The notes beneath the pieces are model-generated. The model had not been told where the DNA came from and did no database searches. It worked only from the letters and a program-made list of their open reading frames with translations. A program made the translations under genes and the position numbers. Below are positions 37,996-53,244 of a stretch of 64,000 nucleotides of DNA, piece after piece (position 1 is the stretch's first letter; each line of letters starts with the position of its first letter). This DNA is from Chitinophaga terrae (ex Kim and Jung 2007) (GTDB lineage Bacteria; Bacteroidota; Bacteroidia; Chitinophagales; Chitinophagaceae): the NCBI RefSeq assembly GCF_900107795.1, contig NZ_FNRL01000004.1:62001-126000 (forward strand), in the 5' to 3' direction.

Positions 37996-38487
37996 ATGAC
38001 ATCATTTAGTTCAATAGTCGCTATCGTTACGGCGGGGCTGATAGCCGGGCTGTTCTTCGGGTTCAGCACCGCCATAAATCCTGCGTTCCTGAAATTAGAC
38101 AACCTGGCTTATATCAAAGCCATGCAGGGTATCAACGAACGTATCCTGAACCCCGTGTTCCTGTCTTGCTTCGTATTGCCATGTATCTTATTGCCGCTCT
38201 CGGCCTGGCTGCATTTCAAAGCGGGAGCCGGTTTGGGAGGAATATTGTTCGCAGTTGCTGCGTTGATCTACATTATCGGGGTATTTGGATTGACGGCAGT
38301 AGTAAATGTGCCATTAAATAACCAGCTGGCTGCGTATAATACGGGGGCGATGACAGGAGAACAACTTGCTGTTGCCAGGGATCATTTTGCCATTCCCTGG
38401 AACCAGACGCATACCTGGAGAACTGTTTTATCGGTGATCTGCTTTGCAATAAGCGTGGTAGCCCTTTACATCGGCAAATCCAGGTAA
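37996..38487 (+). CDS. DUF1772 family membrane protein
   Basis: 163 residues, four membrane helices (about 8-28, 55-72, 82-105, 140-158). NPAFLKLD, the central RILNPVF and the C-terminal HFAIPWNQTHTWRT match DUF1772, a family related to anthrone oxygenases. Function here is unknown. Eleven bp after the atypical SDR gene, so co-transcribed; a two-gene unit of a reductase and a possible oxygenase for aromatic or quinone substrates is a guess. Confidence 0.85.
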   Translation: MTSFSSIVAIVTAGLIAGLFFGFSTAINPAFLKLDNLAYIKAMQGINERILNPVFLSCFVLPCILLPLSAWLHFKAGAGLGGILFAVAALIYIIGVFGLTAVVNVPLNNQLAAYNTGAMTGEQLAVARDHFAIPWNQTHTWRTVLSVICFAISVVALYIGKSR

Positions 38488-38508: not shown

Positions 38509-39762
38509 TTACCGCGATTGCCTGTTTTCCCAGATCTCTTTAATAACAGTCTCGTCATTCATCCCATCCGGGCAATTGGCAGAACGGGTATTGGCCCTAT
38601 ACTTCACCCGCGGTTTTTTATAACCCAATGTCACTATCCTTGTAACGGGCATCTGCAAATGCCCGTTAGGATCATGTTCGGTCACCCATTTGTCGGCATA
38701 CCGGAGCCAGTTGTGCCGGTATTCTTCAGGTTGCTGGTAGAACCAACTGATCTCGTCAAAGCCCCATGGGTAAATAGTTGTTGTATCCGGTACGCCCGGG
38801 TGATTGCTGACACCGAAATTGTCTAACTCTACGAGATAGGGCAATGATGCCGCTTTCCAACCACTGGGGGAAATGCAGCCTTTGCTGCGTCCGAAGAGCG
38901 CATCTGTAAAACCCATTTCCAGTATGCCTTCCTGGGGTTTCCCCGGAACAGATTTAATGCGAAGAGGGAAGGAATTAAAATCCAGCAGGCTTTTGCCTTT
39001 GTACAACATGCCGCCCGACGGCGTATGCGCATCCAGCAGCACCCAGTGGCTCCTGGTATGCGCGCCTGCGTATTTACGCAACCGGGCAATGAATGCCGCC
39101 CAATGGTCGAGGTTTGGGTCTTCCATCCCAATGAGCGCGATCTGGCCCAGGTGCAGCGCTTCACAGCCAACATTCATATAAGTGCCTGCCAGGAACATGA
39201 ACCACAGCTGCGTTTCGGGCCTGGTAATATCCGGCACACTGTTTCCCTTGCTCCAATGGTCGACCAGTTTTCCTTTCAGGTTCAACATGCTGTCGTAGTT
39301 GAAATTCCGTTGTTCAACGGGCATGTCCAGCGCTTGAAAGGCCCAACCGGGGATGGGTACCTGGTTTACCTGGTGGCTGATCTGTTCAAACAAAGCGGCC
39401 TGAAAGATAACTTCCGGGTCGTTTTTCCGTACTTCATCCGCCAGCGCTTTTGCTTTCTGCAGGAAATCGGGATTAGCCAGTACGGCTTCGCCGCCCCACC
39501 TGTAAATAGCGCGGCCAATGAATTTAGCGCCTATGTTTTTAATTAACCGGATATCGTCTTCCTTATTAGGATAAGGCGCATCGCTGGCATACGGGTCAAC
39601 AGACAGGAACTCTGTCATGGTAACCGCATGATCCAGGTAGTATTCCAGGTTTTTACGTGAGATCCCTTTTTTACCGGGCAAATGTTGGGCGTTCGCTAAC
39701 ATGACGCCAAAGAGGAAGAAAGCCAGCACGAAGATTGCCGGACGCTGAGTGATAATTCGCAT
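38509..39762 (-). CDS. Secreted protein of unknown function
   Basis: 417 residues with signal peptide (MRIITQRPAIFVLAFFLFGVMLANA, cleavage near AQH). No family was recognised with certainty. The sequence contains IKNIGAKFIGRAIYRWGGE, and then KYAGAHTRSHWVLLDAHTP, and is rich in Trp, His and Tyr, giving the impression of a TIM-barrel glycosidase-like or substrate-binding fold, but no catalytic motif is clear. It is transcribed alone, divergent from the phenolic-lipid-type operon, so the two could share regulation. Confidence 0.75.
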   Translation of the reverse strand: MRIITQRPAIFVLAFFLFGVMLANAQHLPGKKGISRKNLEYYLDHAVTMTEFLSVDPYASDAPYPNKEDDIRLIKNIGAKFIGRAIYRWGGEAVLANPDFLQKAKALADEVRKNDPEVIFQAALFEQISHQVNQVPIPGWAFQALDMPVEQRNFNYDSMLNLKGKLVDHWSKGNSVPDITRPETQLWFMFLAGTYMNVGCEALHLGQIALIGMEDPNLDHWAAFIARLRKYAGAHTRSHWVLLDAHTPSGGMLYKGKSLLDFNSFPLRIKSVPGKPQEGILEMGFTDALFGRSKGCISPSGWKAASLPYLVELDNFGVSNHPGVPDTTTIYPWGFDEISWFYQQPEEYRHNWLRYADKWVTEHDPNGHLQMPVTRIVTLGYKKPRVKYRANTRSANCPDGMNDETVIKEIWENRQSR

Positions 39763-39892
39763 TTCGTGGAAAATATTTTTTCGAAAGATAGATTTTTTGA
39801 CCGGCTATCGATAAAATTTGGGATAAAGGTCGATGGACGCGTGATGAAAGGAAACAGAGAAATTCTTTATCTTCACAAATCGGCTTACAGTT

Positions 39893-41020
39893 ATGAGCAC
39901 AACAGATGTAATCATTATCGGCGGGGGGCTTGCGGGCCTGACAAGTGCTATCCATTTAACGAAAGCGGGGTTGAAGGTCATTGTAATTGAAAAGAGCCGT
40001 TATCCTTCTCATAAAGTATGCGGGGAATATATTTCCAACGAGGTGTTACCCTATTTACAGTGGCTGAACATAGATCCAGCTCCTTTACAACCGGCCAGTA
40101 TCTCCAGGTTATTGCTTTCAGATCACCAGGGAAAAACGCTGACAGCCCAATTGCCGCTCGGCGGTTTCGGGATCAGCAGGTATGCATTCGATCATTTCCT
40201 GATGGAGCGGTTTTTGGCGCAGGGAGGTGAATTGATCAATGATGCGGTGACCGATGTGCGGATGGAGAACGACAGGATGTATGTGCAAACCAGGGAACGG
40301 GGCGTGTTTGTTGCGCCGCTGGCAGTAGGAGCTTATGGTAAACGCGCATCGCTGGATGTAAAGCTCTCGCGGGGTTTTGTTCAGCAAAGATCGCCCTGGC
40401 TGGCCGTTAAGGCGCATTATAAGGGAGATTTCCCGGCAGATACCGTGAGCCTGCATAATTTCAGGGGAGGGTATTGCGGGGTGTCGACTGTTGAAGGAGG
40501 GATCATCAATATTTGTTACCTCGTGCATTACGATAGTTTTAAAAAATACCAGGATATCGAAACGCATCAGCAGGAAGTGGTATACGGAAATCCTTTCCTG
40601 AAAGAGGTTTTGACCAACAGTACTTTAATATTCGAAAAGCGCCTGGCTATCAGCCAGATCTCTTTTGCCAGGAAAGAAAAAGTATTTGATCATATACTGA
40701 TGGCAGGCGATACCGCGGGGTTGATCCACCCGCTTTGCGGAAATGGCATGGCAATGGCTATTCATAGCGGGCAAATAGTTTCCAGGAACATCCTGGATTA
40801 TTTTTTTACTTATAAAAAAGATCGCAGGCGACTGGAAACTACGTATATACATGACTGGGAGAAAGCGTTCAGCCGCAGGCTGAGGATGGGAAGGGTTTTA
40901 TCTGCCTGCTTTCAGCACGAGCAGCTGGCCGTATCCATGATGAAGGGGCTTACCTGCTTTCCCCGGTTGCTTCCAAAGATCATTAAAATGACGCACGGAA
41001 AACCATTAACATGTGGATAG
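39893..41020 (+). CDS. FAD-dependent oxidoreductase, geranylgeranyl-reductase family
   Basis: 375 residues. FAD-binding starts at the N-terminus (DVIIIGGGLAGLTSAIHLTK), with the RYPSHKVCGEYIS segment of the geranylgeranyl reductase-like group and a second FAD motif ILMAGDTAGLIHPLCGNGMA. Such proteins hydroxylate aromatic rings or reduce alkenes. As the first gene of the type III PKS operon it may oxidise the methylated phenolic product to a quinone or hydroquinone, by analogy with the SrsC flavoprotein of the Streptomyces srs system; the analogy is functional, not shown by sequence. It overlaps the methyltransferase gene by 10 bp. Confidence 0.88.
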   Translation: MSTTDVIIIGGGLAGLTSAIHLTKAGLKVIVIEKSRYPSHKVCGEYISNEVLPYLQWLNIDPAPLQPASISRLLLSDHQGKTLTAQLPLGGFGISRYAFDHFLMERFLAQGGELINDAVTDVRMENDRMYVQTRERGVFVAPLAVGAYGKRASLDVKLSRGFVQQRSPWLAVKAHYKGDFPADTVSLHNFRGGYCGVSTVEGGIINICYLVHYDSFKKYQDIETHQQEVVYGNPFLKEVLTNSTLIFEKRLAISQISFARKEKVFDHILMAGDTAGLIHPLCGNGMAMAIHSGQIVSRNILDYFFTYKKDRRRLETTYIHDWEKAFSRRLRMGRVLSACFQHEQLAVSMMKGLTCFPRLLPKIIKMTHGKPLTCG

Positions 41021-41724
41021 ACACGACGTACAGAAGTAGGGAAACGGAGATCATGGACGATTTTAATATGGAAGGACCCATGTTAAAAGAGACCCTGGTA
41101 AAGATAGACCAGATCAACCGCCGGTTAGGCGGCAATGACGTGACAATAAACGGGGTGTTGCAGCTGCTCAGGGAGCTGCCGGCAGATCAGATGGTGACAA
41201 TTATGGACGCGGGATGTGGAAGCGGGGAAATGCTGAGACAGTTGGCAGATACGGCAAAAAAGATCAACCGCCGGTTCAGGTTAATAGGGGTTGACGCTAA
41301 TGCTACGACCATCGGGTTTGCAAAAGAGTTATCGGTATCCTATCCTGATATTGAGTATTATTGTGAAGATATTATGTCGGAGTGGTTTGAAAAACAGGAG
41401 TCCGACATAATACTGGGGACACTTACCCTGCATCATTTCCCGGAAGAGGAAGTAAAGACCTTACTGCGTCTTTTTCTCCGGCAGGCCAGGGTAGGGATTG
41501 TGATCAACGATCTGCAAAGAAGTGCGCTGGCTTACCGTTTATTCAGCCTGTTGTGCATTGTTTTCAACTGGAACCGGATGGTAAGAACAGATGGTAAGAT
41601 TTCAATATTGAGAGGATTTAAGAAAAAAGAATTAGAACAACTGGCTGCCTCATTGCAGATTAATCATTACTCTGTTAAATGGAAATGGGCGTTCCGGTAT
41701 CAATGGATAATAAAGAACTTATGA
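41011..41724 (+). CDS. SAM-dependent methyltransferase of the type III PKS operon
   Basis: 237 residues, class I methyltransferase. TIMDAGCGSGEMLRQL is the SAM-binding motif I, with GVDANATT and DIILGTLTLHHF (motif II/III) after it. The N-terminal TYRSRETEIMDD and NRRLGGNDVT segments occur in methyltransferases that neighbour type III PKS genes. The start at 41011 overlaps the FAD gene; an ATG at 41053 preceded by GGAG is an alternative but would remove the conserved segment. It likely O- or C-methylates the PKS product. Overlap with the next gene is 4 bp (ATGA). Confidence 0.88.
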   Translation: MWIDTTYRSRETEIMDDFNMEGPMLKETLVKIDQINRRLGGNDVTINGVLQLLRELPADQMVTIMDAGCGSGEMLRQLADTAKKINRRFRLIGVDANATTIGFAKELSVSYPDIEYYCEDIMSEWFEKQESDIILGTLTLHHFPEEEVKTLLRLFLRQARVGIVINDLQRSALAYRLFSLLCIVFNWNRMVRTDGKISILRGFKKKELEQLAASLQINHYSVKWKWAFRYQWIIKNL

Positions 41725-42773
41725 GCGTAAAAATTCAAGCTGTCGCAAAAGCCTTACCGCCCTATACCAGAACTACGCAAGAGATACTTCCTTTTTTGGA
41801 TCTTTGGTTATCCGGCCAGGAAGACCGTTTTGTAAGGAAGGTAAAGAAGATATTTGAAAATGCGGGAGTAGACAGACGTTATTCGATCATGGGACCGGAG
41901 GAGGTTTTTACCAAAACATCGTTTGAAGAGAAGAATAATATTTATATAAAAGAGGGTACCAGGTTAGGACGTCAATGCCTGGAAGCAGCGCTGGAAAAAG
42001 CATCGCTGCGCCCTACAGATATTGATTTTATTATTACCGTTAGTTGTACCGGTATCATGATCCCTTCGATGGATGCTTACCTGATCAATGAGTTGCAGAT
42101 GAAACAGGATATAGTGCGTTTACCCGTTACCGAGATGGGTTGCGCAGCTGGCGTATCAGGTATGCTCTATGCAAAAAAAATGCTGGCGGCCAATCCCAAT
42201 AAACGGGCGGCGGTAATAGCGGTGGAATCGCCTACCGCAACCTTCCAGCTGGACGACTATTCGATGCCGAATATTGTGAGCGCAGCGATCTTCGGAGACG
42301 GAGCCGCCTGCGCTATCCTGAGTTCTTATGATACAGATAAAGGGCCGGAAATACTGGAAGAGGAAATGTATCACTTCTATGATGCGGATCACCTGATGGG
42401 TTTCCAGCTCACGAACGGCGGTTTAAAAATGGTGCTGGACGTGGAAGTGCCGGAGAAGATAGAAGCGCATTTCGGGGATATCGTACATCCTTTCCTTGCC
42501 AAACACCAACTTTCGATCGAAGATATAGATCACCTGATCTTTCACCCGGGAGGAAGGAAGATCATCAACCTGGTAGAATCGTTGTTTGTGTCTATGGGCA
42601 AACAGCTGGACGATACGAAGGAGGTGCTACGGCAATATGGAAATATGTCGAGTGCTACTGTGTTGTATGTACTGGAAAGATTTTTGGACCAGGAGATACC
42701 TGCGGGGAAAAAAGGACTGATGCTGAGCTTTGGACCTGGATTTTCAGCACAAAGAATTTTGTTACAATGGTAA
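41721..42773 (+). CDS. Type III polyketide synthase (chalcone/stilbene synthase family)
   Basis: 350 residues. The catalytic triad is complete: Cys141 (EMGCAAGVSG), His275 (IFHPGGRK) and Asn308 (YGNMSSATVL). VSCTGIMIPSMDAYL and the C-terminal LSFGPGFSAQRILL are also typical. These homodimers extend an acyl starter with malonyl-CoA and cyclise to pyrones or resorcinols. The downstream genes supply acyl-ACP-making enzymes, so a long acyl starter is the likely substrate. The start ATG overlaps the methyltransferase stop codon; the longer frame with MEMGVPV was rejected. Confidence 0.95.
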   Translation: MSVKIQAVAKALPPYTRTTQEILPFLDLWLSGQEDRFVRKVKKIFENAGVDRRYSIMGPEEVFTKTSFEEKNNIYIKEGTRLGRQCLEAALEKASLRPTDIDFIITVSCTGIMIPSMDAYLINELQMKQDIVRLPVTEMGCAAGVSGMLYAKKMLAANPNKRAAVIAVESPTATFQLDDYSMPNIVSAAIFGDGAACAILSSYDTDKGPEILEEEMYHFYDADHLMGFQLTNGGLKMVLDVEVPEKIEAHFGDIVHPFLAKHQLSIEDIDHLIFHPGGRKIINLVESLFVSMGKQLDDTKEVLRQYGNMSSATVLYVLERFLDQEIPAGKKGLMLSFGPGFSAQRILLQW

Positions 42774-43540
42774 AAATATTCGAAGGCTCCTGGGCCGTGG
42801 TGTTGGGAGGCAGCAGCGGGTTGGGTTTGGCGGCGATACAAAAGCTGGCAAGGCATGGCATGAATATCTGTGTTGTTCATCGTAATACACGGGTAGAGTT
42901 GCCGGCCATACAAGCGGCGTTTGAAGCGGTCAGGCAGGAGGGTGTGGAGCTGATCTCCTTTAACGTGGATGTTTTGAATGCGGCGCAGCGGGATGAAGTA
43001 TTGCAGGCGCTTCAAACAGCCATCGGTACAGGAAAGGTAAGGTGCCTGCTGCATAGCATTGCCAGGGGAAACCTGAAGGAGATCCCCCAGCTGCAGCGGG
43101 AGGATATTGATATTACGTTGCAATATATGGCTACCAGTTTATACGACTGGGCGGCAGCATTGCTGAAATCAGGATTATTTGCAGCGGATGCGAGGATCAT
43201 TGCATTTACAAGTGATGGCAGTTATAAAGCTATCCCGAACTATGCGGCGGTATCGGCGGCCAAAGCTGCGCTGGAAGCGATTGTCAGGAGCCTGGCCCTG
43301 GAAATGGCGCCCTATGGGATAAGAGCCAATTGCATAAGGGCGGGTGTTACAGATACGGCGGCGTTGCGGCGGATCCCCGGCAGCGATACGTTGCTGGAGT
43401 ATAGCAAAGAGAGGAATCCTTTTGGCAGGACCACTACGCCCGAAGATGTAGCCAATGTTGTGTACCTATTATGTTGCGATGAAGCGGCCTGGATCAATGG
43501 AACCATTATACCGGTAGACGGAGGAACACATTTACAGTAA
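42767..43540 (+). CDS. FabL-like enoyl-ACP reductase (SDR)
   Basis: 257 residues. The cofactor site is VLGGSSGLGLAAI. The active site is Tyr159-x6-Lys166 (NYAAVSAAKAALEA), the spacing of enoyl-ACP reductases FabI/FabL rather than the Tyr-x3-Lys of ketoreductases. TSDGSYKAIPNYAAV, IRAGVTDTAALRRIPG and GTIIPVDGG align well with FabL of Bacillus. It would reduce the trans-2-enoyl group on an ACP in the private fatty-acid module of this operon. The start lies 7 bp before the end of the PKS gene. The operon has no ketoreductase, which may come from primary metabolism. Confidence 0.85.
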   Translation: MVKIFEGSWAVVLGGSSGLGLAAIQKLARHGMNICVVHRNTRVELPAIQAAFEAVRQEGVELISFNVDVLNAAQRDEVLQALQTAIGTGKVRCLLHSIARGNLKEIPQLQREDIDITLQYMATSLYDWAAALLKSGLFAADARIIAFTSDGSYKAIPNYAAVSAAKAALEAIVRSLALEMAPYGIRANCIRAGVTDTAALRRIPGSDTLLEYSKERNPFGRTTTPEDVANVVYLLCCDEAAWINGTIIPVDGGTHLQ

Positions 43541-43546
43541 AGGATT

Positions 43547-43987
43547 ATGACTAAAGAAGAAGTACTGACATACCTGCCTTACAGCCATCCTTTTCTATTC
43601 GTGGAGCGGCTGGAGTATATAGATGAAGAGAAAGTGACAGGTTATTATACTTTGCATGCCGACCATTATTTTTACCAGGGCCATTTTGTTAACAACCCGG
43701 TGACGCCGGGTGTTATATTAACGGAGATAATGGCGCAGATAGGCCTGGCCTGCCTGGGTATTTACCTGGTAAGAGATACTATTGCAACAATGCAGCCGGC
43801 AATTGCGATGACTTCTTCAGAAGTGAATTTTTACCATCCGGTTTTACCGGGAGAAACGGTGAAAGTAACAGCGGAAAAAGTTTATTTCCGCTTTGGTAAA
43901 TTAAAATGCAAAACTTCCCTTTGGAGTAATGAACGGTTGATTTGTGACGGGGTATTATCGGGGATGATCAGACAAAAGACAGTATGA
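43547..43987 (+). CDS. FabZ-like 3-hydroxyacyl-ACP dehydratase
   Basis: 146 residues, a single hot-dog domain. The catalytic pair is His46 (GHFVNNPVTPGV) and Glu60 (LTEIMAQ), 14 residues apart as in FabZ. LPYSHPFLFVERL is the usual N-terminal strand. FabZ has HFPG where this protein has HFVN, a mild change seen in dehydratases of specialised pathways. It dehydrates 3-hydroxyacyl-ACP before FabL-like reduction. The stop overlaps the ketosynthase start by 4 bp. Confidence 0.92.
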   Translation: MTKEEVLTYLPYSHPFLFVERLEYIDEEKVTGYYTLHADHYFYQGHFVNNPVTPGVILTEIMAQIGLACLGIYLVRDTIATMQPAIAMTSSEVNFYHPVLPGETVKVTAEKVYFRFGKLKCKTSLWSNERLICDGVLSGMIRQKTV

Positions 43988-45264
43988 GTAACAGAGTAGT
44001 GATAACAGGACTGGGCGTGGTATCGCCCAACGGCGTTGGGATACCTGCGTTCAGAACGGCTATTCAGCAAGGAGTTTCAGGGATCAGGTTTGAAGAGCAG
44101 CTGGCGGCGCTGAATTTTTCGTGCCAGATTGCAGGTAAGCCGGAGGTAAGCCAGGAAATATTAACAGCTTATTTCAATGAACTGGAATTAAAGCAACTGA
44201 CCAGTTCAGGAATTATATACGGCATTATCGCCGGGCTGGAAGCCTGGCAGGATGCGGGTTTAAGCATTGGCGATGAAAACGGCGATCCCGATTGGGATAG
44301 TGGAACGATATTCGGAACAGGGACATCAGGAGTTGAAAAATTCAGGGAATCTGTTTATAAAGTAGATGAAGGGCAGGTGCGTCGTTTAGGCAGCAGCGTT
44401 GTACCGCAGACAATGGCCAGTGGGGTGAGCGCTTACCTGGCGGGAAAACTGGGGTTGGGCAACCAGGTGACTACCAATTCCTCTGCCTGTACCACCGGCG
44501 CCGAAAGCCTGTTGCTGGCCTACGAACGTATTAAGAACGGCCAGGCTGTTCGCATGCTGGCGGGAGCCACGAGCGACAGCAGTCCTTATATCTGGGGAGG
44601 TTTCGACGCCCTGAAAGTATGTACCTATAAATTCAACGCAACGCCTGAAAAAGGTTCCAGGCCCCTCAGCGCATCTGCCAGCGGTATAGTGCCGGGAAGC
44701 GGGGCGGGGGCGTTGTTGCTGGAATCGCTGGAGGCGGCGCTGGAACGCGGCGCCAATATCTACGCAGAGGTTTTGGGTGGTAACATTAATGCAGGCGGGC
44801 AGCGGAACGGGGGAACCATGACGGCGCCAAACAGCAAAGCAGTGCAGCATTGCATAACCGCGGCTCTTGCAAATGCCGGCGTAAACGGCGCAGATATCGA
44901 CCTTGTTAATGGCCATCTTACAGCTACGGGAAAGGATGCGGAAGAAGTGATGAACTGGAGCAAAGCATTGGGAGTGGAAGGAGAACGCTTCCCTTATCTT
45001 AATGCGCTGAAATCGATGACCGGCCACTGTTTGAGCGCTTCCGGCAGCATTGAGCTGGTGGCATCGGCGTTGCAGATCAAAGAAGGGTTTATTTTCCCTA
45101 ATATCAATTGCGAAGACCTGCATCCGGAAGTAACGGCGTTGGTTGATCCGCAAAGAATTCCCCGGACCCTATTACATAAAAGCATAAATTTATTGGCAAA
45201 AGCGAGTTTTGGTTTCGGCGATGTGAACGCCTGTGTTATTTTGAAAAAATACCTGCAATCTTAA
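43984..45264 (+). CDS. Beta-ketoacyl-ACP synthase (FabF-like)
   Basis: 426 residues, thiolase fold. The triad is Cys169 (NSSACTTGAES), His311 (NGHLTATGKDAEE) and His348 (KSMTGHCLSASG). The second motif differs from the usual N-A-H-G-T-S/G-T by having Leu after the His, hinting at a specialised acceptor pocket. It lengthens an acyl-ACP with malonyl-ACP, presumably producing the starter of the type III PKS. Its ATG overlaps the dehydratase stop codon. No chain-length-factor partner is present, so it is not an aryl-polyene-type KS pair. Confidence 0.92.
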   Translation: MSNRVVITGLGVVSPNGVGIPAFRTAIQQGVSGIRFEEQLAALNFSCQIAGKPEVSQEILTAYFNELELKQLTSSGIIYGIIAGLEAWQDAGLSIGDENGDPDWDSGTIFGTGTSGVEKFRESVYKVDEGQVRRLGSSVVPQTMASGVSAYLAGKLGLGNQVTTNSSACTTGAESLLLAYERIKNGQAVRMLAGATSDSSPYIWGGFDALKVCTYKFNATPEKGSRPLSASASGIVPGSGAGALLLESLEAALERGANIYAEVLGGNINAGGQRNGGTMTAPNSKAVQHCITAALANAGVNGADIDLVNGHLTATGKDAEEVMNWSKALGVEGERFPYLNALKSMTGHCLSASGSIELVASALQIKEGFIFPNINCEDLHPEVTALVDPQRIPRTLLHKSINLLAKASFGFGDVNACVILKKYLQS

Positions 45265-45275
45265 AGTTACCAGCA

Positions 45276-45530
45276 ATGGAAACATCCGTGTTTATCGAAC
45301 AAATCAGAGAAATAGTAAAGCCTTACGCAAAGAATACAGAAGCACTGGCTAACTTAAATACATCTACAGACTTTATTAATGATCTCAAGATCAATTCTGC
45401 CAACCTGGTAGATGTAGTATTGGATGTTGAAGAGAAGTATGATATTGTTATCCAGAATGAAGAAATGGAGAAGATGTTGAATGTACAGGCTGCACTGGAT
45501 ATTGTAACTGCCAAGTTAAAAGAAAAATGA
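45276..45530 (+). CDS. Acyl carrier protein
   Basis: 84 residues, helical and acidic. The phosphopantetheine attachment is probably Ser41 in LKINSANLVDVV; the classical D-S-L is N-S-A here, while the following hydrophobic helix and EEKYDIVI are well preserved. The gene sits between the ketosynthase and the PPTase that would activate it, and its stop codon overlaps the PPTase start (ATGA). It should carry the growing chain in this operon. Confidence 0.88.
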   Translation: METSVFIEQIREIVKPYAKNTEALANLNTSTDFINDLKINSANLVDVVLDVEEKYDIVIQNEEMEKMLNVQAALDIVTAKLKEK

Positions 45531-46093
45531 TAGGCAACGACATCGTTGACCTCCAGGCGGCAGCTGCAGAAAGCCGCATTACCAGGAAAGGGTTCCTGGA
45601 CAAACTTTTCCTGCCTGCCGAAAAAAAACTGGTACAGGATGCCGGCAACCCGGTATTGATAACCTGGCTTCTGTGGAGCTGCAAAGAAGCTGTTTATAAG
45701 ATCGTTAACCGGCAAACGGGCGACAGGCGTTATACGCCGCATCATTATACCGTGCAGGTAGAGGGGATGAATGACGAGGACGCCTGGGGATCTGTCGTAC
45801 ATGCTAACATGGCTTACCCTTTCCGTACTTGTTTTACCAGCCAGGCTGTTCATACCTATGCGGCCAGCTCTATCGCCCTGCTTAAGCAGCTAACACCTCT
45901 CGCCGGCTGCTTTCAAACCCCTTCCTTCACCGCGTTGTTGCAGCAAAACGGCAGGTTGCCTTTACTCGAAAAACTATACAAAGACCCGTCCGGCATTCCA
46001 TGGATCCGCGATCCTCATACCGGTGAAATGAGCCCCATATCTCTTAGCCATCATGGTAATTACACAGGCATCCTATTGCCTCCCGGTTTTTGA
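45527..46093 (+). CDS. 4'-phosphopantetheinyl transferase (Sfp/AcpS-like)
   Basis: 188 residues. MIGNDIVDLQ is the N-terminal motif with the metal-binding Asp, and WLLWSCKEAVYKI is the W-S-x-K-E-A-x-x-K signature. It transfers phosphopantetheine from coenzyme A to the Ser of the ACP encoded just upstream. Having its own PPTase suggests the operon can act independently of primary metabolism and may be mobile as a unit. Last gene of the type III PKS operon. Confidence 0.9.
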   Translation: MIGNDIVDLQAAAAESRITRKGFLDKLFLPAEKKLVQDAGNPVLITWLLWSCKEAVYKIVNRQTGDRRYTPHHYTVQVEGMNDEDAWGSVVHANMAYPFRTCFTSQAVHTYAASSIALLKQLTPLAGCFQTPSFTALLQQNGRLPLLEKLYKDPSGIPWIRDPHTGEMSPISLSHHGNYTGILLPPGF

Positions 46094-46262: not shown

Positions 46263-48584
46263 ATGTTCCATCGTTATGTAGGACCAGCAATCTGTGGTTT
46301 GTTTTTTATGCTGGCTTGTAACAACAATAACACAGCTTCAGAACAGTTAGCAGAAAAACTACCGGATTCAGTCGACTATAATTTTCATATCAGGCCGATA
46401 CTTTCGGATAAATGCTTTGCCTGTCATGGCCCTGATGCCAACAAGCGGGAAGCGGGTTTGCGCCTGGATATAGGCGACAGCGCCTATAAAGCATTGAAGG
46501 AGTCGCCCGACGCACATGCCATTGTACCCGGCAATCCCAAGGCCTCTGTTCTATACCAGCGCATCACATCTACCGACAGTACGATGCGGATGCCGCCCGT
46601 GAGTTCCAACATTACTTTAACTGCCCACGAGATCAGCCTGATAGAGAAATGGATCAGGCAGGGCGCTAAATATAAGCCTCACTGGGCCTTTGTGCCGCCG
46701 GTAAAGCCTGCATTGCCGAAGGTTGCCGACCAGCAATGGGGGTATAATGAAATTGACAGGTTCGTGCTGGCGAAGATGGAAGAAAAAGGGCTGCAGCCTA
46801 ACGGGCAGGCAGATCATGAACGCCTGCTGAAAAGATTATGTCTTGACCTGACAGGCCTGCCTCCGTCTATTGACCGGATGCAGCGGTTTGCCGCCGATAC
46901 CAGCAACCAGGGTTATGAAAAGATGGTAGACGAGTTGTTGAAAGACAGCGCCTACGGAGAAAAGATGGCCATTCACTGGATGGACGTTGCCCGGTATGCC
47001 GACTCACATGGCTACCAGGACGACAACTATCGCAGCATGTGGCCCTGGAGGGATTGGGTAATCCACGCATTCAACGGGAATCTTTCCTATAAAGATTTTG
47101 TGACCTGGCAACTGGCGGGCGATATGATCCCCAACGGTACCAGGGAACAATTACTGGCATCAGGTTTCAACCGCAATCATAAGATCACGGAAGAAGGAGG
47201 AGTGATAGATGAAGAATACCGCGTAGAATATGTAACAGACCGCACAAATACCTTTGGCAAAAGCCTCCTGGGTATTACCATCGAGTGTGCGCATTGTCAT
47301 GATCACAAATACGATCCATTTTCACAGAAAGAATATTACGAGCTGTTTGCCTTCTTCAATAATGTAAGGGAAGTAGGGCTTGAATCTACAGTAGGCGGCC
47401 CCAATACCTATGCAAAGACGCCGTTGATGGAGATCACGAAAGAAGACCTGCAAGGCGTGCTGCATTTCATCAACAAACAGGATTCAGCTAAGCTCATCGT
47501 GTCGGTAATGGGAGAGCGCGACAGTGTTAAAAAAACGTATGTGCTTGGCCGTGGGAACTACGATAATCCCACTGTTGAAGTGCATCCTGAAACGCCTAAA
47601 GCCATCTTATCATTTGATCCGGGCCGCTATCCGCCTAACAGGTTAGGACTGGCGAACTGGTTGTTTGATCCCCGTAACCCTTTAACTGCAAGGGTTTTTG
47701 TAAACCAGCAATGGCAGGAGATCTTCGGGCGGGGTATCGTTAAGAGCACGGGCGATTTCGGGATGCAGGGCGATCTGCCTTCCAACCCCGAATTGCTGGA
47801 TTGGCTGGCCGTTGATTTCATGCAACACGGATGGGATATCAAACGCCTGGTTAAACAAATGGTAATGTCGGCCACTTACAGGCAATCGGCTGTGGCAACG
47901 CCTGAAAAACTGAAAGCAGATCCTGAGAATATTTATCTGTCCAGGGGCCCAAGATTCAGGCTGCCGGCCGAACTGGTGCGCGACCTGGTACTGGAAAGCA
48001 GCGGCCTGCTGGTACATACCATCGGCGGTCCCAGCGTGAAACCTTATCAACCCAAGGGGCTTTGGGAAATGGCTACATCAGGAAGAGGGATACTGGCCAG
48101 TTATAAGCAGGACCATGGCGAAAGCCTTTATAGACGAGGATTATACACTTTCATTAAAAGAACGGTGCCCCCTCCGTCGATGATGTTGTTCGACGCCAGT
48201 AACAGGGACCAGTGCGAGGTGAAAAGAGTGAACACCAATACCCCGTTACAGGCCTTGATCATGCTCAATGACCCGACAGTGCTGGAGGCGTCGAGGGTTT
48301 TGGCTGCGAAGCTCATTAAACAGAACAATAATGTTGCAGATAATATAAAGCAGGCTTTCAGGTTAATTGTTTGCAGGCAGCCGGCCGAAAAAGAGCTGGC
48401 TATCCTGCAGCAGTATTATGCAAAGCAACAGCAATTATACCAGCAGCAACCTACCGTAGCTGTGAAACTATTAAAACAGGGCGAATACCCGATGGCTACA
48501 GGGCTTGATAATGCGTCATGGGCCGCCATGATGCAGGTGATCACCACTATTTACAACCTGGAGGAAACCCTCTCAAAAACCTGA
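46263..48584 (+). CDS. PSC1 / DUF1549 / DUF1553 planctomycete-type cytochrome lipoprotein
   Basis: 773 residues. The N-terminus looks like a lipoprotein signal (GLFFMLACNNNN). Near residue 50 KCFACHGPD is the C-x2-CH haem site of the planctomycete cytochrome C domain. DUF1549 (about 150-360; NEIDRFVLAKMEEKGLQP, MAIHWMDVARYADSHGYQ) and DUF1553 (about 440-720; NRLGLANWLFDPRNPLTARV, ...) follow. These proteins are abundant in Planctomycetes, where they are tied to degradation of complex polymers; the reaction is not established. First gene of a four-gene operon; DUF1501 starts 2 bp after its stop codon. Confidence 0.9.
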   Translation: MFHRYVGPAICGLFFMLACNNNNTASEQLAEKLPDSVDYNFHIRPILSDKCFACHGPDANKREAGLRLDIGDSAYKALKESPDAHAIVPGNPKASVLYQRITSTDSTMRMPPVSSNITLTAHEISLIEKWIRQGAKYKPHWAFVPPVKPALPKVADQQWGYNEIDRFVLAKMEEKGLQPNGQADHERLLKRLCLDLTGLPPSIDRMQRFAADTSNQGYEKMVDELLKDSAYGEKMAIHWMDVARYADSHGYQDDNYRSMWPWRDWVIHAFNGNLSYKDFVTWQLAGDMIPNGTREQLLASGFNRNHKITEEGGVIDEEYRVEYVTDRTNTFGKSLLGITIECAHCHDHKYDPFSQKEYYELFAFFNNVREVGLESTVGGPNTYAKTPLMEITKEDLQGVLHFINKQDSAKLIVSVMGERDSVKKTYVLGRGNYDNPTVEVHPETPKAILSFDPGRYPPNRLGLANWLFDPRNPLTARVFVNQQWQEIFGRGIVKSTGDFGMQGDLPSNPELLDWLAVDFMQHGWDIKRLVKQMVMSATYRQSAVATPEKLKADPENIYLSRGPRFRLPAELVRDLVLESSGLLVHTIGGPSVKPYQPKGLWEMATSGRGILASYKQDHGESLYRRGLYTFIKRTVPPPSMMLFDASNRDQCEVKRVNTNTPLQALIMLNDPTVLEASRVLAAKLIKQNNNVADNIKQAFRLIVCRQPAEKELAILQQYYAKQQQLYQQQPTVAVKLLKQGEYPMATGLDNASWAAMMQVITTIYNLEETLSKT

Positions 48585-48586
48585 CA

Positions 48587-50038
48587 ATGAAAAATGAATT
48601 CTTAGAACATCATCTGAATATGAACCGCCGCAAGTTCCTGTCGAACCTCAGCATTGGGGTAGGCAGCCTGGCGTTGGGTTCCCTGCTCATTCCTGATATT
48701 TTCAGCAAGGGTACAGATGAATTGGCATTTACACCCGGCGTACCTCATTTTGCGCCTAAAGCCAAAAGGATCATTTACCTCTTTCAGAATGGCGCCCCTT
48801 CCCAGTTGGAGAGCTTCGACTATAAACCCAAGCTGAGAGAGATGATGGGACAGGAATTGCCCCCTTCTATCCGGAACGGACAGCGGCTGACGGGCATGAC
48901 CTCCGGACAGTCGTCTTTCCCGCTGGTAGGTTCGTACTACGACTTTAAGCAATACGGCGCTTCCAGGGCCTGGATCAGCGACCTGTTCCCGCATACCGCC
49001 AGTATTGTAGACGACATCTGCATCGTAAGATCCATGTATACAGAAGCGATCAACCACGATCCGGCGCTTACCTTTTTCCAGACAGGAGCCCAGCAGGGAA
49101 ACCGCGCCAGCTTCGGCTCGTGGATGAGCTACGGCTTAGGCAGCGAGAATAAGAACCTACCGGCTTTTTGCGTGTTGTTATCGCGGGGTAAAGGAAACGG
49201 CCAGGGGGTGTACAGCAAGTTATGGTCTAACGGCTTTTTAGACAGCATTCACCAGGGCGTACAGTTCAGCAGTGGGGAAAGCCCGGTGCTGTACCTCAAT
49301 AATCCCGAAGGCATGGATATGGCTAACAGGCGGCAGATGCTGGACCAGCTGGCAGCCTTAAACGAACAATCGTATAAAGAGTTTGGCGATCCGGAGATCA
49401 GCACTAAGATACAGCAGTATGAGATGGCCTACAGGATGCAGACAGCCGTACCTGAACTAACCGATCTTTCGAAAGAACCGGACGATATTGTAAAACTCTA
49501 CGGACCGGAATGCCTTGTTCCCGGTACATTTGCGGCCAATTGCCTGCTGGCCAGGAAGCTTTCTGAAAGCGGTGTGCGCTTTATCCAGTTATATCACCAG
49601 GGCTGGGATCAGCATGGCAACCTGCCGAACGAAATGGCGGGCCAGGCAAAAGATGTGGACAGGGCTTCCGCGGCACTGATCACCGATCTCAAACAACGGG
49701 GACTGCTCGATGAAACACTGGTGATCTGGGGAGGAGAATTCGGGCGTACCAATTACTGCCAGGGCAAGATACAGGCAGATAATTACGGGCGGGATCACCA
49801 TCCCCGCTGCTTCTCCATCTGGATGGCGGGAGGCGGAGTGAAACCCGGGATCGTATATGGAGAAACAGACGAATTCGGGTATAACATTATCAAAGACCCG
49901 GTGCATGTGCATGACTTTCATGCCACCGTTCTGCACCTGATGGGGCTGGATCACGAGAAATTAACTTATAAACACCAGGGCCGCCGCTACAGGCTTACAG
50001 ATGTAGCCGGAAAAGTGCTGCCCGGTTTAATGGCGTAA
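48587..50038 (+). CDS. DUF1501 family protein with Tat-like signal
   Basis: 483 residues from the ATG at 48587. The N-terminus holds NRRKFLSNLSIGVGSLALG, a twin-arginine signal. DUF1501 belongs to the alkaline-phosphatase/sulfatase superfamily; metal-ligand-like motifs include YHQGWDQHGN and WGGEFGRTNYCQG, then DHHPRCFSIWMAGGG. It is almost always next to DUF1549/DUF1553 proteins, and the pair is thought to act together in the periplasm. Function unknown. 18 bp separate it from the NHL-type gene. Confidence 0.9.
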   Translation: MKNEFLEHHLNMNRRKFLSNLSIGVGSLALGSLLIPDIFSKGTDELAFTPGVPHFAPKAKRIIYLFQNGAPSQLESFDYKPKLREMMGQELPPSIRNGQRLTGMTSGQSSFPLVGSYYDFKQYGASRAWISDLFPHTASIVDDICIVRSMYTEAINHDPALTFFQTGAQQGNRASFGSWMSYGLGSENKNLPAFCVLLSRGKGNGQGVYSKLWSNGFLDSIHQGVQFSSGESPVLYLNNPEGMDMANRRQMLDQLAALNEQSYKEFGDPEISTKIQQYEMAYRMQTAVPELTDLSKEPDDIVKLYGPECLVPGTFAANCLLARKLSESGVRFIQLYHQGWDQHGNLPNEMAGQAKDVDRASAALITDLKQRGLLDETLVIWGGEFGRTNYCQGKIQADNYGRDHHPRCFSIWMAGGGVKPGIVYGETDEFGYNIIKDPVHVHDFHATVLHLMGLDHEKLTYKHQGRRYRLTDVAGKVLPGLMA

Positions 50039-50056
50039 TAATAAACTATTATCATA

Positions 50057-51082
50057 ATGGAAAGAAGGAAATTCATACAGGCTTCAGCGTTAGTAACAGC
50101 ATCATTTTATATTTCGCGCGATCTGTTCGCGAAGCCTAAAGGACCGGTATACGGGCATAATAATAAAAAGTATGTCCTGGATACAAAGTGGGGAACACTT
50201 GATAGTAGCAGGTACCCGGTAAAAGACTGCCATGAAATGGTGCAGGACAAAAAGGGCAGGATCATTTTGCTGACAAATGAAACAAAGAACAACATCCTTA
50301 TCTACAATACCTCCGGTAAATTATTGGAAAACTGGGGACATGAATTTCCCGGCGCCCACGGCCTGACCCTCTGGAACGAGAACGGCACGGAGTATTTATT
50401 TATCACAGATACGGAAAAGCACCAGGTATACAAGACCACCATGGATGGCAAGGTGTTGCTGACAATAGACTATCCTGCAGAATCGGGAGTTTATAAAAAG
50501 AAAGAAGAGTTTGTACCAACAGAAACAACGATAGCGCCGAACGGCGATATTTTCGTTGCCGATGGCTACGGCGCACAGTATGTACTGCATTACGACAGCA
50601 AAGGGAAACTGCTCAATTTCTTCGGAGGCCGGGGAGAAGGCACGGAACACCTGGATAATGCACATGGTATTTGCGTAGATTACCGCAAAGCAGATCCGAC
50701 CCTCATTGTGACGGATAGAACAAGGAATTGTTTTAAACGGTTTTCTATGGACGGAAAACTGATGGAAGTGATTTCGACGCCCGGGGCTTGTGTTTGCCGG
50801 CCTGTGATAAAAGGACAATACCTGTATGCCGCCGTATTGCGTTCGCCGAATATGGATGCCAACGCCAGTGGGTTTGTAACGATCCTGGATAAGGATAATA
50901 AAGTAGTATCCAACATTGGCGGTACCGCGCCTACCTATGTGAACGGTGCATTGCAGCCAATGCAGCAGGCGGAGAAAATATTTGTACATCCTCACGACGT
51001 ATGTGTAGACAGCGATGAAAACCTGTACGTTGCCCAGTGGGCTTCAGGTAAAGTTTACCCATATAAATTGAAGAGAGTCTAA
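50057..51082 (+). CDS. NHL-repeat / six-bladed beta-propeller protein with Tat signal
   Basis: 341 residues. MERRKFIQASALVTASFYIS is a twin-arginine-like signal. The mature protein has repeated units such as DKKGRIILLTNETKNNILIY, PNGDIFVADGYG and HGICVDYRKADPTLIVTDRT, typical of NHL propellers. It probably folds in the cytoplasm and is exported folded. It may bind a ligand or sugar lactone; related sequences occur next to DUF1501 modules. Stop and next start overlap by 1 bp (TAATG). Confidence 0.85.
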   Translation: MERRKFIQASALVTASFYISRDLFAKPKGPVYGHNNKKYVLDTKWGTLDSSRYPVKDCHEMVQDKKGRIILLTNETKNNILIYNTSGKLLENWGHEFPGAHGLTLWNENGTEYLFITDTEKHQVYKTTMDGKVLLTIDYPAESGVYKKKEEFVPTETTIAPNGDIFVADGYGAQYVLHYDSKGKLLNFFGGRGEGTEHLDNAHGICVDYRKADPTLIVTDRTRNCFKRFSMDGKLMEVISTPGACVCRPVIKGQYLYAAVLRSPNMDANASGFVTILDKDNKVVSNIGGTAPTYVNGALQPMQQAEKIFVHPHDVCVDSDENLYVAQWASGKVYPYKLKRV

Positions 51083-53244
51083 TGAACGAACCGACAGGTA
51101 AATGGTACCGTGTTGGCGGCAGTATCCTGCTTGCCGCCAATACCTTCGTACTTTTTTTGGTATGTTTCAGCAATAGCATCGTATTGCCGCCCTGGTTGCA
51201 GGTAGTTGGCCGGATGCATCCTTTACTGTTACACTTTCCTATAGTTATTTTATTGCTGGCGGCGTTGATAGCGTTTATACGGCCGCGTGATCCCGCCTTG
51301 CAGAAATGGAAACATGTGGCAATCCGCGTATTGCTGCTTACAGGCGCGTTGCTGACCGCCTTTACCGTAATTATGGGGATTTTCCTTTCTAAAGAAGCGG
51401 GCTACGATGAAGCCGGTTTGCAATGGCATAAATGGGGAGGAGTGATATTGCTTTGGCTGGTATCGGCGCTCTATGTACTAACCCGCAGGCAGTTGGAAGA
51501 TCAGTGGTGGATGAAAGGCGGTATGTTGCTGGTAACGTTGCTGTTATTAGTTACCGGGCATTTAGGAGCGGATATCACCCATGGGGCTAACTTTGTTTTA
51601 GCGCCGGTAACGCCGCAACAGCCTAAACTGGTGCCATTGGAAAAGGCGGAAGTCTATACCGACCTGGTGCAACCTATACTGGAAGAGAAGTGTATGGGTT
51701 GCCATAACGCAGGTAAAGCAAAAGGCGGGCTGGTACTGGAACATCCTGCACAACTGTTGAAAGGAGGGAAGAACGGCAAAGCAATAGTGGCCGGGCATCC
51801 CGATCAAAGCCTGATCTATGCGCGGTTGCTGCTGCCGCCCGACGATAAGAAGCATATGCCGCCTGCCGGCAAACCGCAACTCAACGAAAAGGAAACTGCA
51901 TTACTTTATCATTGGATCAAATCAGGAGCATCCTTTAACCTTAAAGCAATCGCCCTGCCGATGGATGATAGCTTGCGGATGGCGGCAGCCAGCCTGTTGC
52001 AGGCGCCGGCAAGCGAACCGGTATATGATTTTGCGCCGGCAGACGAAAAGCTCGTACAGCAACTCAATAACAACTACCGGGTAATTTACCCTATTGCCCA
52101 GCATGCAGCGCCTTTGGTGGTAAACTGTTATAACAAAGACCAGTTCAATTCCAAAACGATCGAAGAGCTGTTGCCTTTAAAAAAGCAGATCATTGAAATG
52201 CACCTGCAAAAGATGCCGGTTGAAGACAAGGATCTGAAGTTACTGGCATCGTTTAAAGAGTTAAGGGTATTGAATCTGAATTTCACGAATATCAAGGGGC
52301 AAACATTGGCCGAACTGGCTTCCCTGCCTAAATTGGAACGTTTGTCGTTGTCCGGAACGCCTGTGACCCTTGCTGCTTTGCAGGCATTGAAAAGCGCTAA
52401 AGCGTTAAAGGAACTTTATCTCTGGAACAGTGGCTTAGCAGCCGGTGATTTTGAGAAATTGCAGAAGCAGTTGCCTCAAACCGCCATCGTAAAAGGGTTT
52501 ATCGAAGACGGGTCACATCCCCTGAAATTAAACCAGCCTATACTGGCATCTACCGACCTGGTGTTCAAAGATAAAATGCAGGTCTGCCTCCGGCACCCGG
52601 TAAAAGGAGTGGCTATTCATTATACCCTGGATGGCACAGCCCCGGATACTGTTAATTCGCCGGTCTTGAAAGATAGTGTAGAGATCAGCCGGAATACTGT
52701 AGTAAGGGCTGTTGCTACCAAGAATGGCTGGTATGCCAGCGACCCTGTGCAATTTGCTTTCTCCAGAACAACCTATATCCCCGACAGCGTGGTTTTGATC
52801 ACCACGCCCGATGGCAGCTATGCCGGTAGCGGAGCGCTCACCCTGAACGATAAACAGCGCGGAGGCGCAGAACAGGGGAACGGCAAATGGCTGGGCTATT
52901 ACAAAGATCCTTTGGCAGCCTTGCTGATATACAAAACTCCCGTTCCTGTATCGCAGGTCTGCGTAGGCATACTGAGTAACGTAAACGGATATATTTTCCC
53001 GCCATCAAAAATTGAAATTTACGGAGGCCAGGACCCCAAACACCTGAAACTGCTGAAAAAAGTAATACCCGCACCGGGAAAGAAAGATGATCCTTCTATG
53101 TCGATGGATGTAAAATGCGATTTCCCTGCTACCAATGTAAGTTGCCTGAAGGTAGTGCTCACAGGGTTGGAAAAGATCCCTGACTGGCATCCGGGCAAAG
53201 GAGGCCGGGGTTGGGTGTTTGCAGATGAACTGATGATCAATTGA
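51082..53244 (+). CDS. DUF2231 membrane protein with cytochrome, LRR-like and chitobiase-C-like domains
   Basis: 720 residues. Four membrane helices at the N-terminus (about 10-30, 42-62, 78-100, 115-165) include MHPLLLHFPIVILLLAALIA, typical of DUF2231. A cytochrome site KCMGCHNAGK (about residue 210) belongs to a planctomycete C-type domain. Then come leucine-rich segments (LRVLNLNFTNIKG, LERLSLSGTPVT; about 390-460), a chitobiase C-terminal-like domain (IHYTLDGTAPDT) and a final jelly-roll-like domain. It probably anchors electron transfer for the operon in the inner membrane with its large part in the periplasm. Ends the operon. Confidence 0.85.
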   Translation: MNEPTGKWYRVGGSILLAANTFVLFLVCFSNSIVLPPWLQVVGRMHPLLLHFPIVILLLAALIAFIRPRDPALQKWKHVAIRVLLLTGALLTAFTVIMGIFLSKEAGYDEAGLQWHKWGGVILLWLVSALYVLTRRQLEDQWWMKGGMLLVTLLLLVTGHLGADITHGANFVLAPVTPQQPKLVPLEKAEVYTDLVQPILEEKCMGCHNAGKAKGGLVLEHPAQLLKGGKNGKAIVAGHPDQSLIYARLLLPPDDKKHMPPAGKPQLNEKETALLYHWIKSGASFNLKAIALPMDDSLRMAAASLLQAPASEPVYDFAPADEKLVQQLNNNYRVIYPIAQHAAPLVVNCYNKDQFNSKTIEELLPLKKQIIEMHLQKMPVEDKDLKLLASFKELRVLNLNFTNIKGQTLAELASLPKLERLSLSGTPVTLAALQALKSAKALKELYLWNSGLAAGDFEKLQKQLPQTAIVKGFIEDGSHPLKLNQPILASTDLVFKDKMQVCLRHPVKGVAIHYTLDGTAPDTVNSPVLKDSVEISRNTVVRAVATKNGWYASDPVQFAFSRTTYIPDSVVLITTPDGSYAGSGALTLNDKQRGGAEQGNGKWLGYYKDPLAALLIYKTPVPVSQVCVGILSNVNGYIFPPSKIEIYGGQDPKHLKLLKKVIPAPGKKDDPSMSMDVKCDFPATNVSCLKVVLTGLEKIPDWHPGKGGRGWVFADELMIN

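Follow-up and report, generated by a model that had tools for sequence, protein, structure and literature searches.

Where does a type III polyketide synthase (PKS) obtain its acyl starter when its gene lies in one run with genes for a small set of fatty-acid-type enzymes? The question is posed by a locus of Chitinophaga terrae (ex Kim and Jung 2007) in a stretch of 64,000 nucleotides (RefSeq assembly GCF_900107795.1, contig NZ_FNRL01000004.1, positions 62,001 to 126,000), here called the window, whose list of open reading frames (ORFs) contains eight consecutive plus-strand ORFs at 39893-46093. An initial annotation had given each of these genes a function, and all eight were recovered through Pfam and NCBIfam models together with matches to solved structures (Table 1): a trio of FAD-dependent oxidoreductase (FAD), methyltransferase (MT) and type III PKS is followed by a module of short-chain dehydrogenase/reductase (SDR), FabZ-like dehydratase, FabF-like ketosynthase (KS), acyl carrier protein (ACP) and 4'-phosphopantetheinyl transferase (PPTase). 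We consider this probably to be a phenolic-lipid (or alkylpyrone) operon with an acyl-supply cassette of its own, made up of discrete type II enzymes.

Gene order and its linkage to one PKS clade

Related loci were taken as the best 80 of 172, picked by similarity to the window PKS (PKS identity 70-87%), and their carriers include Chitinophaga, Pedobacter, Dyadobacter, Taibaiella, Spirosoma, Kaistella, Flavobacteriaceae and Saprospiraceae. By tblastn, the partners of the PKS in the adjacent trio, MT and the flavoprotein FAD, were detected in 80/80 and 77/80 loci respectively, the PKS itself in 80, FabZ and KS in 79 each, ACP in 74, PPTase in 70 and SDR in 52. Eight truncated loci were set aside before gene order was counted. 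The full eight-gene order is present in 39 of the 72 untruncated loci and the order lacking SDR only in 26; four loci are without a detected PPTase only, one is without ACP and PPTase, and in two Dyadobacter loci (L067/L069) the module lies upstream and divergent, with no FAD gene. Because the order, with or without SDR, is kept in 65/72 untruncated relatives, it goes beyond chance, and the linkage of the PKS with the module is not accidental. Mirror-tree correlations among the eight genes run from 0.44 to 0.85 (PKS-KS 0.73, PKS-MT 0.64, FAD-MT 0.83, FAD-KS 0.84); they do not single out PKS-module pairs, and we do not count them as evidence.

The same association is seen at the level of genomes. 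When 395 genomes were drawn from across the phylum, the PKS (E<=1e-100) was found in 33, the window's own included, and the KS (E<=1e-110) in 38, with all 33 falling within the 38 and both genes lying on one contig in 33/33 cases, separated by 0.45-1.53 kb. The initial annotation had staked its proposal on a conserved linkage between the PKS trio and the fatty-acid genes, and this linkage holds both by gene order and by the presence of the KS in every PKS-bearing genome of the draw.

Type III PKSs as such are far more widely distributed in the window's family, where 97/195 genomes have a match at E<=1e-20, only six of them (own included) at >=70% identity. We opened 20 of the 91 genomes below 70% identity, mostly best-scoring ones and not a random set, and these fell into a clade A (13 loci) and a clade C (7 loci), some of them with a contig end nearby (L114, L116, L119, L120, L129). 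Clade A has the order PKS-MT-FAD, with both partners in 12 loci and MT only in one, at a contig end; the clade C loci have neither the MT/FAD partners nor the module in their fetched flanks, and the module was found in the fetched flanks of 0/20 loci of the two clades together. This third clade of type III PKSs (L113-L119) is 33-37% identical to the window PKS and 54-83% identical within itself. In the PKS tree, module-linked clade B (27 rows, 100/99), clade A (13 rows, 100/95) and clade C (7 rows, 100/100) are separate; this tree, like the KS tree described below, was built on samples of rows and carries long-branch warnings. Linkage to the module is thus specific to one PKS clade in the loci opened.

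Enzymes of the operon and the proposed pathway

For the type III PKS we prefer the start at 41721 to the longest-ORF start at 41679, with relatives aligning from the 41721 residue onward. The protein has the N- and C-terminal CHS domains, PF00195 and PF02797, over cut-off, as well as the complete Cys-His-Asn triad that the initial annotation had described, C141-H275-N308, which is invariant in 81/81 aligned sequences. The closest solved structures are PKS11, which makes alkylpyrones, and CylI, which makes an alkylresorcinol. Met237, invariant in 40 sequences, aligns with what is presumably the gatekeeper region, where alignments place Leu in PKS11, Phe in THNS and Asn in CylI, a comparison from which resorcinol and pyrone ring types cannot be told apart. 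Median identities to the window proteins are 73% for PKS, 67% for KS, 54% for FAD and 51% for MT; the PKS is the highest, but the loci were selected by PKS similarity, which flatters it. With only four reference sequences in the PKS tree, all long-branched, and with the Srs and Hid sequences outside it, its placement among known enzymes is unsure. The FAD enzyme finds its best folds among the flavin halogenases PltA, ChlB4 and Mpy16, followed by epoxidases and hydroxylases. A halogenase was not adopted, the WxWxIP motif that we take to mark these enzymes not being seen by eye, with no pattern search run; a hydroxylase is the likelier prediction.

Among the NCBIfam models listed, none is matched above its cut-off by any of the eight proteins, so we regard them as divergent relatives of the curated enzymes of primary metabolism and not as those enzymes themselves. 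Their active-site residues are intact in the window and well kept in relatives: the ACP serine (S41) in 75/75 sequences, FabZ H46 and E60 in 80/80, PPTase D5, K53, E54 and K58 in 71/71, the KS Cys/His/Lys/His in 77/77 sequences covering these positions (two further sequences have gaps), and the SDR Tyr in 53/53 and Lys in 52/53, with one gap. The Pfam match of the ACP is weak, at 21 bits vs a cut-off of 32. The SDR, which is of the Tyr-x6-Lys type, scores 165 bits against the NCBIfam FabL equivalog, whose cut-off is 328, and is accordingly named FabL-like and not FabL; since it pairs Tyr159-x6-Lys166 with FabL (3oic) as its best solved match, enoyl reductase is its likelier role. The closest matches of the KS are FabF and FabB, the ketosynthases of fatty-acid synthesis, and polyketide KSs rank lower; the operon has no second KS of a KS/chain-length factor pair.

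From these assignments a pathway can be proposed in which the PPTase would arm the dedicated ACP, and the KS, FabZ, the SDR where present and a housekeeping FabG for ketoreduction would synthesise or lengthen an acyl chain attached to it. The type III PKS would then accept this chain, add malonyl units and cyclise the product to an alkylresorcinol or alkylpyrone, whose ring MT and the FAD enzyme would methylate and oxidise. Gene content and conservation are the grounds for the chain-building half of this scheme, co-occurrence, clade specificity and precedent for the hand-over to the PKS, and the homology of MT and the FAD enzyme for the tailoring steps; we infer the transfer of the chain from ACP to PKS (direct or via CoA), the chain length, the ring type and the order of tailoring. 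Further support comes from the related modules that adjoin other acyl-consuming pathways, at six loci with dar genes and at one with a nonribosomal peptide synthetase (NRPS), as detailed below, and from one above-cut-off FabG elsewhere in the genome, which could provide the ketoreduction.

Several observations weigh against this proposal. Most of the 33 co-occurring genomes come from one family and are not independent, and the functions of KS, SDR, ACP and FabZ are assigned by homology below NCBIfam cut-offs. Ketoreductase (KR) is absent from the operon, so the module is not self-sufficient. The SDR was not found in 28/80 loci, and a search of 12 SDR-less genomes at E<=1e-25 found no relative in 11; the SDR is therefore dispensable, and conservation does not extend to a complete private fatty-acid cycle. 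At the locus L173 the PKS stands with SDR-FabZ-KS and no adjacent FAD, MT or ACP was detected, and at L177 three other ORFs lie between FabZ and KS.

Alternatively, the acyl group made by the module could end up as a decoration on the ring product, for instance through an ester bond, the PKS drawing its starter as acyl-CoA or acyl-ACP from primary metabolism. We judge this improbable, even though the clade A operons with their PKS, MT and FAD genes manage without a linked module, which argues that a linked private starter is no general need, and flexirubins, as the relevant part of one paper describes, are resorcinols esterified by a polyene acid (PMC3992019). Set against it, no acyltransferase is found among the eight conserved genes by Pfam or NCBIfam, and clustering of flanking ORFs (<=9 kb per side) gave no family in more than 18/80 loci, these families being unannotated.

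The frequent lack of the SDR fits another scheme, in which KS, dehydratase and a housekeeping KR would yield an unsaturated or polyene starter without enoyl reduction, the SDR serving as an optional reductase and the product being an aryl-polyene-like pigment. This seems more doubtful still: the KS sides with the fatty-acid enzymes FabF/FabB over polyketide KSs and has no second KS beside it, and where the SDR is missing the housekeeping FabI could replace it. Least credible, and very unlikely in our view, is that the operon joins two gene sets of separate function, co-regulated from one promoter and spread as a unit without being linked in metabolism, for while related modules or parts of them do stand beside Dar, NRPS and glycosyltransferase family 2 (GT2) genes without a window-type PKS, the 33/33 co-occurrence, the clade specificity and the persistence of the pairing in rearranged order (the Dyadobacter loci) or on different contigs (G612) all speak against it.

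Related modules beside other genes, and the surroundings of the operon

Having placed the acyl-supply operon ahead of these alternatives, we turn to its module in other settings. Five of the 38 KS genomes of the draw are without the PKS (L150-L154). In L150 and L151 an SDR-FabZ-KS-ACP-PPTase module lies divergent beside dar genes, and in L150 the NCBIfam models for DarB (NF053539, 615 bits), DarG and DarH are each matched above cut-off. Six loci of the opened regions, from two families, share this Dar context (L150, L151, L182-L185), the NCBIfam run covering the Dar neighbours of L150 and the other five being recognised by BLAST to L150 (DarB 72-75%). These modules stand divergent beside DarB/DarG/DarH and ABC transporter genes of the dialkylresorcinol/flexirubin type, and their SDR, FabZ and KS are 44-54% identical to those of the window. 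The loci L152-L154 have FabZ-KS-ACP, in L154 with an SDR also, next to genes for a GT2 glycosyltransferase and a GNAT-like protein.

With the L150 KS as query, matches were found in 18/298 genomes of the order and in 12/121 of another family, and regions were fetched in two sets, of 10 and 20. Among the 18, the PKS lies beside the KS in 11 and Dar genes in one, a contig end cuts two (L178, L181), and four have other neighbours (L171, L172, L179, L180). Among the 12, all five of genus g117 were opened and have the Dar context, and the three opened of the seven of genus g116 all have the PKS. In L171 (9133-15815) a cassette-type KS-ACP-PPTase lies directly upstream of an NRPS with two condensation domains and one adenylation domain, where it may possibly supply an acyl starter for a lipopeptide; L179 has FabZ-KS-ACP beside an acyl-AMP ligase, and L180 has SDR-FabZ with tandem KSs.

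A tree of 56 KSs places the 49 from cassettes on one branch (100/100), apart from seven own-genome paralogues, to which the long-branch warnings apply, and the operon KS is therefore not a housekeeping copy. Within this tree the six Dar-linked KSs form one clade (100/100) and 34/35 sampled KSs linked to a type III PKS form one branch (96/99). The odd one, that of L173, groups with the KS of L172 beside this branch, and L172, whose KS has no adjacent PKS, belongs to the genome G612, which encodes a 62% identical PKS on another contig. A ketosynthase of the StlD/DarB family is present in 13/13 genomes examined and lies on another contig in all seven with a PKS operon; the window genome has its single DarB match on contig C25 and the operon on C32. 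Since the cassette KS was found once, in the operon, in the four of these seven PKS-operon genomes covered by the KS search (G000, G006, G177, G764), and the six Dar-module genomes have type III PKS matches only at 30-37% identity, the module is, where tested, confined to a single one of these contexts.

A broader reading, which we advance tentatively, is that SDR-FabZ-KS-ACP-PPTase may be a portable type II acyl-ACP supply unit of Bacteroidota, recruited independently by two unrelated makers of resorcinols, this clade of type III PKSs and the DarB ketosynthase pathway, with parts of it taken up by other systems. The type III PKS may then have adapted to receive its starter (possibly a beta-ketoacyl-ACP) straight from such a unit, which would make the pair a hybrid of type II fatty-acid synthase (FAS) and type III PKS.

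Within the operon we count three 4-bp ATGA overlaps (MT/PKS, FabZ/KS, ACP/PPTase), one fewer than first reported; PKS and SDR overlap by 7 bp, FAD and MT by 10 bp, and the SDR/FabZ and KS/ACP junctions have no overlap. The operon has a GC content of 48.0%, in line with the 47.4% of the window, and no Bacteroidetes-type promoter pattern is present in 39501-39900. Because no flanking family exceeds 18/80 loci, the operon is taken to end at the PPTase.

Table 1. Genes of the type III PKS operon, with positions in the 64-kb window
Feature	Position	Strand	Basis
FAD-dependent oxidoreductase (FAD), PHBH/flavin-halogenase fold	39893..41020	+	Pfam, NCBIfam
S-adenosylmethionine-dependent methyltransferase (MT)	41011..41724	+	Pfam Methyltransf_25; NCBIfam PRK06202 126 bits, below cut-off; 80/80 loci
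Type III PKS, C141-H275-N308	41721..42773	+	PF00195/PF02797 over cut-off; triad 81/81
FabL-like SDR, predicted enoyl reductase, Y159-x6-K166	42767..43540	+	best solved match FabL 3oic
FabZ-like 3-hydroxyacyl-ACP dehydratase, H46/E60	43547..43987	+	PF07977
FabF-like ketosynthase (KS), C169/H311/K343/H348	43984..45264	+	NCBIfam fabF 262 bits, below cut-off
Dedicated acyl carrier protein (ACP), S41	45276..45530	+	Pfam/NCBIfam ACP models, below cut-offs; E. coli ACP-like
4'-phosphopantetheinyl transferase (PPTase)	45527..46093	+	PF01648 36 bits, over cut-off; no NCBIfam match

The neighbouring genes are poorly shared with the related loci. Divergent from the operon, on the minus strand at 38509-39762, lies a gene for a 417-aa protein with a hydrophobic N-terminal segment, matched by neither Pfam nor NCBIfam (4/80 loci), and the second gene upstream, at 37996-38487, encodes a small protein with a match to PF08592 (Anthrone_oxy) (0/80 loci). 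Downstream, a run of large plus-strand ORFs occupies 46263-53244, the first of which has a weak match to TIGR03806 (diheme cytochrome), below cut-off (9/80 loci).

Comparison with known systems

The closest precedent for a type III PKS with fatty-acid genes of its own is the ars system of Azotobacter vinelandii, where, according to the sections of two papers that treat it, a dedicated FAS (ArsA/ArsD) encoded around the type III PKS genes (ArsB/ArsC) feeds them ACP-bound chains (PMC6274091, PMC3098273), the ACP domain of the type I FAS ArsA passing these chains directly to ArsB and ArsC (PMC6274091). The window operon resembles ars in placing dedicated fatty-acid synthesis genes beside a type III PKS. 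Unlike ars, it encodes no multidomain type I FAS and has in its place a separate type II-like KS, FabZ, SDR, free ACP and PPTase, together with the MT and FAD genes. The trio recalls instead the MT-oxidoreductase-type III PKS operons of planctomycetes, which are described in part of one paper as resembling cyanobacterial hidABC and whose PKSs gave alkylresorcinols in Corynebacterium (PMC10896814). This likeness is one of gene content, and the order differs, being FAD-MT-PKS here; the same part of that paper mentions no acyl-supply module. In Chitinophagaceae itself, the clade A operons share homologous MT (28-37%) and FAD (37-44%) enzymes with the window operon, whereas their PKS, of another clade, is 27-33% identical, their order is PKS-MT-FAD and no module lies in the fetched flanks of any of the 13.

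CylI of the cylindrocyclophane pathway makes its alkylresorcinol from an ACP-bound chain that type I PKSs elongate upstream of it; it is 26% identical to the window PKS. Germicidin synthase is also said to be a type III PKS that uses acyl-ACP. The trio may also parallel the Streptomyces srs phenolic-lipid system in function, as first proposed; the trio operons compared by sequence here are those of other Chitinophagaceae. Dialkylresorcinol/flexirubin systems share the related SDR-FabZ-KS-ACP-PPTase module at the six loci above; their resorcinol, as part of one paper states, is made by darA and darB (PMC3992019), and unlike them the window operon contains no Dar gene, DarB included.

The initial annotation knew of no described product for this gene combination, and neither a product nor a published cluster with this gene order was found in the open-access literature, which leaves room for one described elsewhere. 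Type III PKS clusters make up 10.74% of Flavobacteriaceae clusters in the portion of one survey that reports them (PMC10734526), and the Bacteroidota surveys that list such clusters name no product in the portions consulted (PMC10734526, PMC10752948, PMC12565237, PMC9323603, PMC12843772); the same is true of the consulted portion of PMC8086630, and the words type III and T3PKS are absent from the main text of PMC9248904. In three sponge metagenomes, every type III PKS cluster found its best match in an alkylresorcinol cluster, by the account in part of that paper (PMC9864124), which fits our reading and does not concern the window operon.

Type III PKSs fed by acyl-ACP are already known; it is less expected that the cassette is a discrete type II one, that it is linked to a single PKS clade across several families of Bacteroidota and that a relative of it stands beside Dar genes. 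The operon represents a widespread and testable case of a type III PKS tied to a separate type II acyl carrier system, and it could itself set the choice of starter, which is usually left to the acyl-CoA pool. Within one family, the clade A operons without the module and the clade B operons with it offer a natural comparison for the module's role, and the module's relative next to Dar genes suggests that two unrelated resorcinol routes may draw on the same kind of acyl supply.

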